From positions 1 to 57,007 of the forward strand of contig JAAYHM010000043.1 in the NCBI GenBank assembly GCA_012735405.1: 57,007 nt of DNA. Reading direction: 5' to 3'. A model generated the notes under the pieces. It had not been told where the DNA came from and did no database searches. It worked only from the letters and a program-made list of their open reading frames with translations. Shown here in pieces: positions 4,779-49,703 of the stretch (the stretch's first letter is position 1; every line of letters begins with the position of its first letter). The position numbers and the translations under genes were made by a program. This stretch comes from Tissierellia bacterium. GTDB lineage: Bacteria > Bacillota > Clostridia > Tissierellales > Tepidimicrobiaceae.

Positions 4779-5002
4779 AAAAAAACCGCCTCTAATTAAA
4801 GAGACGGCAAAACCGCGGTTCCACTCTTTTTGGAATAACCCACTTTATTACGTATAACGCCGTAACCCGTATTGCTCTACTTTTTTCAAGCAATAAGTTC
4901 AAAGGTGCACTTCAACTATAATCTAATCTTAAAGTTCCTTTCAGCCCATGGGAACTTCTCTCTGTAAGCAGATTATAGTCTACTTTCCTTGTCTTCACTT
5001 TT
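4779..5002 (-). promoter_or_regulatory. T-box leader of cysS (Cys specifier TGC)
   Basis: This fills the 334-base gap between gltX and cysS. The T-box core (AGAGTGGAACCGCGG type) is at 4826-4809, followed by a terminator with arms GCCGTCTCT/AGAGGCGGT and a run of Ts at 4808-4779. Stem I is formed by ACTATAATCT and its exact complement AGATTATAGT, flanked by AGTA on the 5' side and GAA on the 3' side. The specifier after GAA-G reads TGC, a cysteine codon, matching the gene. I see no clear promoter, so it may be read from the gltX transcript. Confidence 0.93.
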
Positions 5003-5013
5003 ATATATTCATT

Positions 5014-9328: not shown

Positions 9329-9572
9329 AAAAAAGCCTTTCATCTCCACCTAGAGACGAAAGGCATGCTTCCGCGGTACCACTCTAATAGACCTAAATAA
9401 ATTTAAGTCCCCTTAATATGTTAACGCAATTAGCGTTTAAGCCTACTCTTTTCAGCTTAAAGGCTCCAGGACGGGTTCAGTATTAAGGGGGCCGGAAATC
9501 TTCCACCAATTTGATTTCCTCTCTATAGGCCATTAATACCTACTATTTCCTATCACAGCCAAATATTTAATT
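9329..9572 (-). promoter_or_regulatory. T-box leader of proS (Pro specifier)
   Basis: This fills most of the 318-base gap before proS. The core AGAGTGGTACCGCGG-type sequence is at 9386-9368 and the terminator has arms GCCTTTCGTCTC/GAGATGAAAGGC, then TTTTTT. In Stem I, AGTA-GGTATTAA pairs with TTAATAC followed by TGAA. By the same register as the other two T-boxes here, the specifier after GAA-C is CCG. One base earlier would be CCC; both are proline codons. Confidence 0.92.
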
Positions 9573-25263: not shown

Positions 25264-25500
25264 AAAAAGTCCCTAAGCAAATGCTTAGGGACGGATTACC
25301 GCGGTACCACCCAAATTGCAGAGAAAATCTCTGCCACTCCTTTTAGAATAACGCCCCAGGCGTAACATCCTACTGAAATTTCAGATGTTATGCTCCAAAG
25401 TGATCTTCGTAAAAGAATTTATTGATAATCTCTCACCAGATGATTATCTCTCTGTGAATAAATTCTTTTACTACTCTCTTTTTCATAGCATTTACATATC
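25264..25500 (-). promoter_or_regulatory. T-box leader of ileS (Ile specifier ATC)
   Basis: This fills the 324-base gap between lplA and ileS. The core GGGTGGTACCGCGG is at 25311-25291 and the terminator has arms GTCCCTAAGC/GCTTAGGGAC, then TTTTT. Stem I has a 15-bp perfect pairing of GTAAAAGAATTTATT and its complement, then GAA-G-ATC-A. The specifier ATC is an isoleucine codon. Confidence 0.95.
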
Positions 25501-30603: not shown

Positions 30604-30622
30604 AGCTAGATTGTAATTACAT

Positions 30623-30651
30623 AAAAAAATTCTTGCTGCTAGCAAGAATTT
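30623..30651 (-). terminator. Attenuator terminator between the two PyrR hairpins
   Basis: Ten-bp perfect arms AAATTCTTGC/GCAAGAATTT followed by TTTT. Flanking strands AGATTGTGATTACA (30698-30685) and its near-complement (30621-30608) can form an alternative helix. Confidence 0.85.
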
Positions 30652-30693
30652 GACACAAGTATACACATGAACCATATACAATTTTGTAATCAC

Positions 30694-30728
30694 AATCTTG
30701 CCAGCCTCACAGGACTGATTTAAAGATT
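30694..30728 (-). promoter_or_regulatory. PyrR-type hairpin 1 (distal)
   Basis: Outer arms AATCTT/AAGATT around the core AGTCCTGTGAGGCTGGCAAG, a close match to the known PyrR-binding loop. The AAGATT arm is shared with the alternative helix, as expected for an anti-antiterminator. Confidence 0.85.
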
Positions 30729-30745
30729 AAATTTTAATTTTTTTC

Positions 30746-46986: not shown

Positions 46987-47961
46987 TTAAAAAGGGTTAA
47001 TTTCAGATAAATAATCCAACAGGACTTTTTCCACTTCATCCTTAGAAGAAATAGAGTTTATTATATTTTTAATTCTATTAGAATTTTTCATCCCCTTTAT
47101 ATACCAAGCTATATGCTTTCTCATTTCTTTTACTCCAACCAATTCTCCCTTATCTAAACATAAGAGATTCAAATGTTTAATAGCCATATTTATTTTTTCC
47201 TCACTACTAGGTTCCATATCCTTTTTTCCTTCCTTAAGGGCTAGAATCCTTTTAAATATCCAGGGATTCCCCATGGCCCCCCTTCCAATGGCTACACCAT
47301 CACATCCTGTATACTCCATCATTTTTATAGCATCCATAGGCTCAAATACATCCCCATTGCCTATTACAGGAATATGGACAGATTCTTTTACCTTCTTTAT
47401 ATACTCCCAGTCTGCCTTGCCTGAATAAAACATATTTCTGGTTCTACCATGTATAGTAATTGCTGCTATCCCTTCTTCTTCGGCAATTTTGGCTATTTCA
47501 ATGCCAGTTAGGCTGTCAAAATCCCAGCCCATTCTAATTTTAACAGTAACAGGCTTGTTGGATACCCTAACTATACTTTTTAATATCTTTCTTACTAATT
47601 TAGGGTTCTTGAGTAGTGCTGCACCGCCGCCATTTTTTACTATTTTGGGTGTGGGACATCCCATATTTATGTCTAAAATATCTATATCTTCCCTATTATT
47701 TATGTGGCTTTCAACTACCTTTGCCATAATATCTGGATCTGATCCAAATATTTGCAAGGCAACAGGCCTTTCATCTGCTGTTATATATGTTAGATTTTTT
47801 GTTTTTTCATCCCCATAGTACAGCCCCTTACAACTTACCATCTCTGTAACTACAAGGCCTGCCCCCATTTCTCTGCAGATAGTCCTATATACCCTATCTG
47901 TAACTCCAGCCATAGGGGCTAACACAATGTCATTTTCTAAGGCTACTTTCCCAATCTGCAT
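46987..47961 (-). CDS. dusB: tRNA-dihydrouridine synthase DusB
   Basis: FMN enzyme of 324 aa reducing uridine to dihydrouridine in tRNA. Signature VLAPMAGVTDRVYR near residue 15, active-site Cys in NMGCPTPKIVKNGGGAALL near 102, and HGRTRNMFYSG near 175. The C-terminal helical tRNA-binding domain is complete. It shares the transcript with coaX, which is 37 bases upstream. Confidence 0.95.
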   Translation of the reverse strand: MQIGKVALENDIVLAPMAGVTDRVYRTICREMGAGLVVTEMVSCKGLYYGDEKTKNLTYITADERPVALQIFGSDPDIMAKVVESHINNREDIDILDINMGCPTPKIVKNGGGAALLKNPKLVRKILKSIVRVSNKPVTVKIRMGWDFDSLTGIEIAKIAEEEGIAAITIHGRTRNMFYSGKADWEYIKKVKESVHIPVIGNGDVFEPMDAIKMMEYTGCDGVAIGRGAMGNPWIFKRILALKEGKKDMEPSSEEKINMAIKHLNLLCLDKGELVGVKEMRKHIAWYIKGMKNSNRIKNIINSISSKDEVEKVLLDYLSEINPF

Positions 47962-47979: not shown

Positions 47980-48007
47980 AAATAAGTAGCCTCCTGGCTA
48001 CTTATTT
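47980..48007 (-). terminator. Hairpin after coaX
   Basis: Arms AAATAAGTAGCC/GGCTACTTATTT around a 4-base loop; the T run is weak, so partial read-through to dusB is likely. Confidence 0.65.
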
Positions 48008-48771
48008 CTATCATATATTATGCGTAATCCTTCAAGGGTCAGTAAAGGATCTACTTTATCAATATATTTACTCTCTGAAGCTATTAAATTGGCTAGGCCT
48101 CCTGTAGCTACTATTCTCTTTACCTGACCTTGATCCTTTAGTTCATCTATTATTCTTTCCAGTATAAAGTCCACTAAGCCTACATATCCATAAATTAAAC
48201 CTGCTTGAATACTATTTACAGTATTTTTCCCTATCACATTTTTAGGCTTAACTAATTCAACCTTAGGCAGCTTAGCAGCCTTCATAAATAATGCTTCACT
48301 GGAGATTCTAATTCCTGGTGCTATTACACCTCCTAAATAATCCCCTTCCTTTGAGATTACACAAAAGGTTATGGCTGTTCCAAAGTCTACTATTATCAAA
48401 GGTCCCCCATATTTTTCATAGGCAGCTACTGCATTTACAATTCTATCTGCCCCTAGCTCTTTAGGATTTTCATATTTAATATTCATACCAGTTTTAATTC
48501 CTGGACCCACAATTAAGGGTTTTTTATTGAAGTATTTTTCACTCATGGAAGATAATGTAGTCATTAAAGTAGGTACCACAGTTGAAATAATGACATCTTC
48601 AACATCTTTCATGGAAATCTGATTATATCTAAATATTTGTTCAAATAACAAGCCATATTCATCTTCAGTTTTGTTTTTATCTGTGGATAATCTCCAATAA
48701 TTAAGCAGTTTTTCCCCTTCATAAATACCAAAGACTATATGGGTATTTCCTACATCTATTGCTAATAACAT
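47998..48771 (-). CDS. coaX: Pantothenate kinase type III
   Basis: Type III pantothenate kinase, 257 aa, first step of coenzyme A synthesis. The ASKHA fold has [18 protein letters not shown] at the N-terminus, [16 protein letters not shown] near 105, and VDFGTAITF near 130. It lies just after a membrane substrate-binding gene, which supports pantothenate uptake for that transporter. Confidence 0.95.
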
Positions 48772-48783
48772 ATATTCACCATC

Positions 48784-49533
48784 CTAATTCTTCCTATTTC
48801 TTAAAACTTTAACAATATTGGTAACTAATATTATTGCAATAATAACTTCTGGCATGCCATTGGTAATTCCAATGCCAATTAGAACCTTCTTGGCCATGGA
48901 TATATCTTGTCCTAATGCTAAAACGAAGCGCTGGGCATAAAAAAGATATATGCTGGAAAGTACTCCAACAGTATTAGTTAATGTACCCATAATTGTAGGT
49001 ATTATAATATCTATGGCCTTATTTTTAAGTTTTTTGCTTGTAAAAAAGGCCATTGAAATACTTAAAATTATTAGTAAAACATTTACAAGTATTGGCCAAA
49101 TACTATTAAAGTCAGTTAAATTTATATATATACCATATAATAAATATCCAATTATTCCTATCCATAACAGGTTTAACAGCCGTAAGGATTTATTTTCCCC
49201 TAAATCCTTTATAAACTTATAAGTATAATAGGTTACTATTCCAATTAAAAACCTGGGTAATATGGAAACAAGAGGATTTAAAAAAACGAAGGATACAGGT
49301 GTAGGATTGGACATGGCTTGGAACATACTCAACATTCCAAACAAAAGGCCTATAAATCCTCCTACCAGTGGGCCCTCCATAATGGCACCTATAATTACTG
49401 GTATATGCATTATAGTTGCCCTGGTAGGTCCTATGGGAATAAATCCCAAAGGTGTTAAACCTAAAATAATTGAAATTCCTCCTAATACTCCAATAATAGT
49501 CATTTTTCTAATAGATATGCTTGCTCTTTTCAT
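48784..49533 (-). CDS. ECF transporter S component, probably for pantothenate
   Basis: A membrane protein of 249 aa with about six hydrophobic helices, typical of ECF S subunits, which bind a vitamin and pair with the EcfA/T module encoded elsewhere. N-terminal IRKMTIIGVLGGISIILG and GPTRATIMHIPVIIGAIMEGPLVGGFIGLLFG give the S-component feel. The substrate is inferred as pantothenate because coaX follows directly. The strong GGGAGGG site lies right behind two hairpins. Confidence 0.82.
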   Translation of the reverse strand: MKRASISIRKMTIIGVLGGISIILGLTPLGFIPIGPTRATIMHIPVIIGAIMEGPLVGGFIGLLFGMLSMFQAMSNPTPVSFVFLNPLVSILPRFLIGIVTYYTYKFIKDLGENKSLRLLNLLWIGIIGYLLYGIYINLTDFNSIWPILVNVLLIILSISMAFFTSKKLKNKAIDIIIPTIMGTLTNTVGVLSSIYLFYAQRFVLALGQDISMAKKVLIGIGITNGMPEVIIAIILVTNIVKVLRNRKN

Positions 49534-49549
49534 GCTTTTCCCTCCCGCT

Positions 49550-49621
49550 CTGGTTCCGTCAGGATACCAGTCGAACTTTTATTTATTTTTCCCAACTGTC
49601 CAGTTCTATAACAGATACTGG
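49550..49621 (-). promoter_or_regulatory. Two tandem look-alike leader hairpins
   Basis: Hairpin 1 (49621-49600) has outer arms CCAGT/ACTGG, a bulged A on the 5' side, inner arms TCT/AGA and a 5-base loop. Hairpin 2 (49570-49550) has CTGGT/ACCAG, the same bulged A, TCC/GGA and a 4-base loop. Each is followed by an unpaired A. They fill the short leader and end 3 bases before the ribosome binding site. The layout resembles the tandem pan-type RNA motif of pantothenate genes, but this is not verified. Confidence 0.6.
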
Positions 49622-49629
49622 CCAAAATA

Positions 49630-49658
49630 ATTATAATTCTTAATATATATTTTTTCAA
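49630..49658 (-). promoter_or_regulatory. Promoter of the ECF-coaX operon
   Basis: TTGAAA (49658-49653), 17-bp spacer, TATAAT (49635-49630). Transcription would start around 49623, so the first hairpin begins within a few bases of the 5' end. Confidence 0.75.
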
Positions 49659-49676
49659 CACTATAAATTATCTAAA

Positions 49677-49703
49677 GCATGGCCTAGGGCCATGCCTTTT
49701 TTT
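49677..49703 (-). terminator. Terminator of the decarboxylase operon
   Basis: Arms GCATGGCC/GGCCATGC with a 3-base loop; it overlaps the end of the beta-subunit gene. The T run on the minus strand is short. Confidence 0.7.

Follow-up and report, generated by a model that had tools for sequence, protein, structure and literature searches.

The pan leader and the operon it precedes

The locus lies on the minus strand of a Tissierellia bacterium contig (JAAYHM010000043.1, assembly GCA_012735405.1), which was analyzed over positions 1-57,007, hereafter the window. In the direction of transcription, the operon opens with a panT-type gene for an ECF substrate-binding subunit of 249 aa (48784-49533; PF12822, 4.4e-28; start codon ATG at 49533), continues with coaX, encoding a type III pantothenate kinase of 257 aa (47998-48771; PF03309, 7.1e-82; NF009847, 416 bits over a cutoff of 381), and has as its third gene dusB, for a tRNA dihydrouridine synthase (46987-47961; TIGR00737, 400.8 bits over a cutoff of 293.3; conserved synteny). 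The original prediction had placed an ECF subunit followed by coaX at this position, and these family matches bear it out.

It had further proposed that a pantothenate-linked RNA stands in front of an uptake gene. When a profile of 18 panT orthologues was compared with the PDB, two chains were clearly matched, 4rfs (E 4.5e-20) and 6zg3 (E 7e-11), both of which are PanT pantothenate transporters (PMC7755397), versus 0.017 for the thiamine subunit ThiT. As judged from this profile, the ECF subunit is closest to the solved PanT transporters rather than to other S components, and its putative role as a pantothenate transporter is supported by homology together with the coaX and pan RNA context, in agreement with the proposal. 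ThiT was considered as its identity and rejected, since the Pfam and NCBIfam matches were below cutoff and the PDB profile match was far weaker than that to PanT.

Neither panC nor panD was found in the genome, and coaBC is present; the organism should therefore need external pantothenate, and its pan RNA is retained without complete vitamin B5 synthesis. A search of a same-genus relative found none of panB, panC, and panD either. Elsewhere in this genome without panC or panD, two adjacent PanB-like genes (C152:24000-34000) lie together with ketopantoate-reductase-like and dehydratase-like genes and, by eye, apparent TRAP transporter genes, a cluster that possibly reflects a catabolic use of PanB-like enzymes. 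Rfam matches in the window also include three T-box leaders (25284-25495, 9349-9565, and 4797-5004) and a PyrR binding site (30621-30730), all on the minus strand.

Upstream of the panT-type gene, a promoter with 11/12 consensus matches (49630-49658, minus strand) combines the -35 hexamer TTGAAA (49658-49653), a 17-nt spacer, and the -10 hexamer TATAAT (49635-49630). Its position predicts a transcript start at about the first base of the motif described below, so the leader is essentially that motif plus the ribosome-binding site, much as had been claimed for a leader made almost only of hairpins. On the opposite strand, a terminator-like hairpin (49677-49695, plus) faces the leader, and two promoter-like plus-strand sites (49470-49497 and 49608-49637) lie upstream of it; this hairpin could simply terminate transcription in both directions behind the upstream operon, or it could end a short antisense RNA.

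A likeness to the tandem pan motif had been noticed from the letters alone, with a covariance-model search named as the check. The Rfam pan model (RF01749) matches 49624-49542 on the minus strand over its full length (1-92) with 39.5 bits, which is barely over the gathering score of 36.2, and finds this single copy in the whole genome. On the strength of this match and of the comparisons below, we assign the element to the pan RNA family. The two hairpins of the same plan are present as predicted: hairpin 1 (49598-49622) has a 5-bp stem CCAGU/ACUGG, a bulged A49616 on the 5' side, and three pairs UCU/AGA, and hairpin 2 (49546-49573) has a 5-bp stem CUGGU/ACCAG, a bulged A49565 on the 5' side, and three pairs UCC/GGA. 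The prediction of one bulged A per hairpin was correct for these two residues and missed a second bulged A in the 3' strand of either hairpin (A49599 and A49549) as well as the lower stems, which in hairpin 2 consist of C49573-G49546 and G49572-C49547. Both the 3'-side bulged A residues and the short lower stems belong to the pan consensus, and the two tandem stems with two conserved bulged A residues each are kept in relatives. G49546, which closes the lower stem of hairpin 2 at its 3' end, is also the first base of the Shine-Dalgarno sequence GGGAGGG (49540-49546).

The folding energy of the single leader is no better than that of shuffled sequences (z = -0.53), and its predicted minimum-energy fold is without hairpin 2. 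We therefore rejected single-sequence folding as support, and the case rests on comparison. Two alternative pairings were also examined by eye and discarded: a pairing across hairpins 1 and 2 (CCAGU with ACUGG) is not kept in relatives with CCAAU/AUUGG or CUAGU/ACUAG stems, and a linker pairing of CAGUUGGG with UUCGACUG from the leader's predicted fold is absent in the same-genus relative.

Comparative evidence and pan-linked genes

The original prediction had argued for a structured RNA from stems that differ in sequence around a kept bulged A, and had asked whether orthologous leaders covary. In an alignment of 18 leaders made by sequence alone, 98.5% of cells pair and 22 cells carry double changes, compared with 6.6 in shuffles. 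Among 70 distinct sequences from a search with our own covariance model (R1), aligned by fitting to the structure and thus leaning towards it, 96.5% of cells pair, 17 of the 18 pairs have changed on both sides, double-change cells number 163 versus 38.7 in shuffles, and the covariation score is 0.440 versus 0.206. When partners were slid in this set, the covariation signal collapsed. The expected covariation is thus found, and the argument for a structured RNA holds.

R1 was built from the 18 panT-type elements. Run on about 0.5 Mb of sequence covering 80 named panT loci, it matched 71 of them, always immediately upstream of panT and with 4-11 nt between the motif end and the start codon, and gave no match elsewhere in the 0.5 Mb at E<=0.1; by contig matching, about 60 of the 71 loci were outside the training set. 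Rfam's own model, with its stricter threshold, places pan RNA above cutoff in 27/80 of the same genomes. The matched loci include Tissierella, Clostridium ultunense, Tepidibacter, Peptoclostridium, Acetoanaerobium, and Clostridium species, and the nine loci in which R1 found no match belong to one Eubacteriales MAG and to Allofustis, Anaerococcus, Aedoeadaptatus, and Peptoniphilus species. Four matches, in Aedoeadaptatus, Anaerococcus, and related records, score low (E 0.008-0.04), with hairpin 1 degraded or missing; hairpin 2 and the Shine-Dalgarno sequence are kept there.

These comparisons bear on two rival readings. The unremarkable folding energy and the small excess of 39.5 bits over the cutoff speak for hairpins that arose by chance in an A+T-rich leader and for an Rfam match that is marginal, but the motif before panT in 71/80 loci and the covariation refute this reading, which we give practically no credence; the case beyond chance is a comparative one, built on the Rfam match, the recurrence before panT, and the strong covariation. 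Inverted repeats read as double-stranded DNA by a repressor would agree with an element that begins at the predicted transcript start. However, G-U pairs are frequent (39/70 at one hairpin 2 pair), which is expected of RNA and not of an operator in DNA. The single bulged A residues, too, are maintained on just one strand, and every element lies on the coding strand with a fixed spacing to the start codon, so that a DNA operator is highly improbable.

Within the order, pan RNA occurs in 35/249 genomes, 19 of which have both panC and panD and 16 of which, the genome studied here among them, have neither; the same-genus relative carries one copy (49.3 bits with the Rfam model). In 15 of the 16 carriers without panC and panD the RNA precedes panT, the exception being a 68% complete genome with a panG-type pan site. 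Two groups of downstream genes are found in the order, panG-panB-panC-panD operons and panT-coaX-dusB, and both site types occur together in two genomes. The panT-coaX-dusB arrangement follows the element in 17 of the 18 order genomes with a panT-type element, and panT-coaX follows it in the 18th.

Across the phylum, the element was present in 152/398 sampled genomes from many families, and 150 of 151 pan sites precede operons for pantothenate synthesis, uptake, or phosphorylation. The first recognized gene is panG at 74 sites, panB at 23, panT at 22, panC at 12, a PanS-like gene at 5, an OPT transporter gene at 5, panD at 3, bioY before panT at 3, birA before panT at 3, and none at 1. This tally over-represents the order to which the window belongs, and its genes were called by BLAST against a few references. 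The sole site without a pathway gene has a strong pan RNA (54.5 bits), a terminator-like hairpin downstream of it, and then a gene for a protein of 78 aa that carries paired CxxC motifs and matches no Pfam family.

Several of these genes are importers. In three genomes, the gene after the OPT gene under pan RNA (PF03169, 1.5e-49) encodes a type II pantothenate kinase (NF009842, above cutoff), and two further sites have pan RNA before an OPT gene. Since yeast Opt1 imports pantetheine-glutathione mixed disulfides (PMC12406275), the pan-linked OPT proteins are, by analogy, candidate bacterial importers of CoA precursors. At five sites, pan RNA stands before a gene for a PanS-like sodium symporter and then panC, an order that suggests control of pantoate uptake; because the protein scores 298 against an NCBI cutoff of 400, PanS denotes a resemblance and not an assignment. 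At six sites, pan RNA lies upstream of bioY-panT(-coaX) or birA-panT(-coaX) operons, which would couple biotin and pantothenate genes in a single transcript. Altogether, pan-linked genes make, import, or phosphorylate pantothenate, the OPT and PanS-like genes probably so.

Expression platforms and proposed switching

In 62/67 panT leaders, the Shine-Dalgarno GGAGG and hairpin 2 have a base in common, since the first G of the one is also the final paired base of the other; in the remaining 5/67 the Shine-Dalgarno sequence abuts the hairpin. This overlap with the last stem base indicates that the panT-type pan RNA would act on translation. The panT leaders leave no room for a terminator; one was looked for and rejected, the stricter scan giving only 2/18 hits, both within the coding region.

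The other pan leaders of the phylum have a different platform, with a terminator-like hairpin within 200 nt in 112/129 non-panT leaders compared with 31/129 in control windows further downstream. In this set, the 5' arm of each leader's own terminator can base-pair with the 3' arm of hairpin 2, with a mean of -14.5 kcal/mol versus -12.2 kcal/mol for mismatched leaders, and other parts of the motif reach -5.6 to -9.4 kcal/mol with the terminator. None of 2000 permutations was as good as the matched pairing (0/2000), a pooled comparison that is decisive for the set, even though the set includes related and hence non-independent leaders. Taken singly, most leaders gave no significant result when the antiterminator was tested against shuffles. 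Because the 3' arm of hairpin 2 overlaps the Shine-Dalgarno sequence in one design and matches the 5' arm of the terminator in the other, this one strand is likely the switch in both, and a strand common to both designs offers precise mutations for testing.

We infer that the gene is OFF when hairpin 2 is formed, a direction that in the panT type follows from steric overlap; no conserved alternative pairing that defines the ON state of this type was found. Our model is as follows. When the supply of pantothenate or CoA is sufficient, a trans-acting signal, either a pathway metabolite or a protein reporting on the pathway, would stabilize hairpin 2, the Shine-Dalgarno sequence would be closed to the ribosome, and pantothenate uptake would fall. 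In biosynthetic leaders, the free 3' arm of hairpin 2 would pair with the 5' arm of the terminator as an antiterminator, and formation of hairpin 2 would likewise turn the genes OFF. We consider it probable, with good though not full confidence, that the leader belongs to a panT-type subclass of tandem pan RNA and controls the pantothenate-uptake and kinase operon panT-coaX-dusB at translation.

Candidate effectors and comparison with known systems

Since pan RNA is kept where vitamin B5 synthesis is incomplete, it is improbable that the effector is solely an intermediate on the way to pantothenate. The presence of pan RNA on importers and kinases, and its retention without complete synthesis, points instead to pantothenate or a downstream product such as CoA, and the kinases among the targets fit, without proving, a post-kinase product of this kind. 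We infer that the leader would respond to pantothenate or CoA, the two compounds with which the original prediction had suggested probing it.

Two forms of effector fall within this best explanation. In the first, a dimeric RNA-binding protein that reports the pantothenate or CoA state would bind both hairpins and block the Shine-Dalgarno sequence or cause termination, in a PyrR-like manner. The hairpins are small and simple, their conservation is limited to the bulged A residues and adjacent pairs, they are arranged in tandem, and a dimeric protein ligand was suggested by Weinberg et al. (PMC2864571); yet pan RNA has no known partner, and an element found so widely (152/398 genomes, many families) would demand an equally widespread one. 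We regard such a protein as quite possible, stopping short of favoring it. In the second form, the ligand would be pantothenate, a phosphorylated intermediate, or CoA, bound by the tandem hairpins themselves at two sites that act together. That the associated genes all belong to a single pathway, that typical platforms are attached (terminator/antiterminator and Shine-Dalgarno), and that coaX and type II pantothenate kinase genes are in the regulated set, as fits a post-kinase product such as CoA, speak for this form, which we entertain tentatively; however, each hairpin has only about 25-28 nt, with scant conserved sequence for an aptamer, and a validated CoA riboswitch is not reported in the Breaker-group reviews of 2022 (PMC9971707, PMC10043782). 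Our literature search found no metabolite binding data for pan RNA.

In a bolder version, pan RNA would sense CoA or one of its late precursors directly, as the cofactor riboswitch reported missing, and would place the synthesis, import, and kinase genes for B5 in a single regulon. We think this rather unlikely; if it were true, the pan-linked OPT transporters would be unrecognized bacterial importers of CoA precursors. Pan RNA may also serve as a marker for finding unrecognized transporters of CoA precursors.

The published target set of pan RNA has been narrow since 2010, when Weinberg et al. described it before panB, panC, or aspartate decarboxylase operons (PMC2864571), and it is listed upstream of panB in a study of Paenibacillus (PMC5670726). 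Importers (panT, PanS-like, and OPT) and pantothenate kinases are now added; within the open-access article texts covered, and with priority accordingly not certain, we found no report of pan RNA before panT, coaX, or OPT genes, and a mention of RF01749 in an Oenococcus paper was discarded as a false match to an ORF number. The element studied here shares with RF01749 the tandem stems, the two bulged A residues per stem, and the position in the 5' leader of a pantothenate-pathway operon on the same strand. In contrast to the published panB, panC, and aspartate decarboxylase cases, its operon is panT-coaX, which is outside the published set and belongs to a genome that lacks both panC and panD. 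Its hairpin 2 also runs into the Shine-Dalgarno sequence, whereas elsewhere a terminator follows hairpin 2.

Two other kinds of leader offer parallels. Like PyrR binding site RNA (RF00515) and similar attenuators, the pan hairpins are small, can switch between terminator and antiterminator, and may act through a protein; however, the leader's Rfam match is pan, and the PyrR match lies elsewhere in the window (30621-30730). Vitamin riboswitches act on ECF substrate-subunit genes, for example TPP on thiT and FMN on ribU. There, as proposed for pan RNA, a leader RNA governs an ECF vitamin-uptake subunit as well as the biosynthesis genes for the same vitamin, but those systems have proven ligands and aptamers larger than pan. 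The leader represents a known family in a new arrangement, with an uptake and kinase operon downstream and the Shine-Dalgarno sequence fused to the motif, and pan RNA appears to govern both routes, import and synthesis, by which bacteria obtain vitamin B5.
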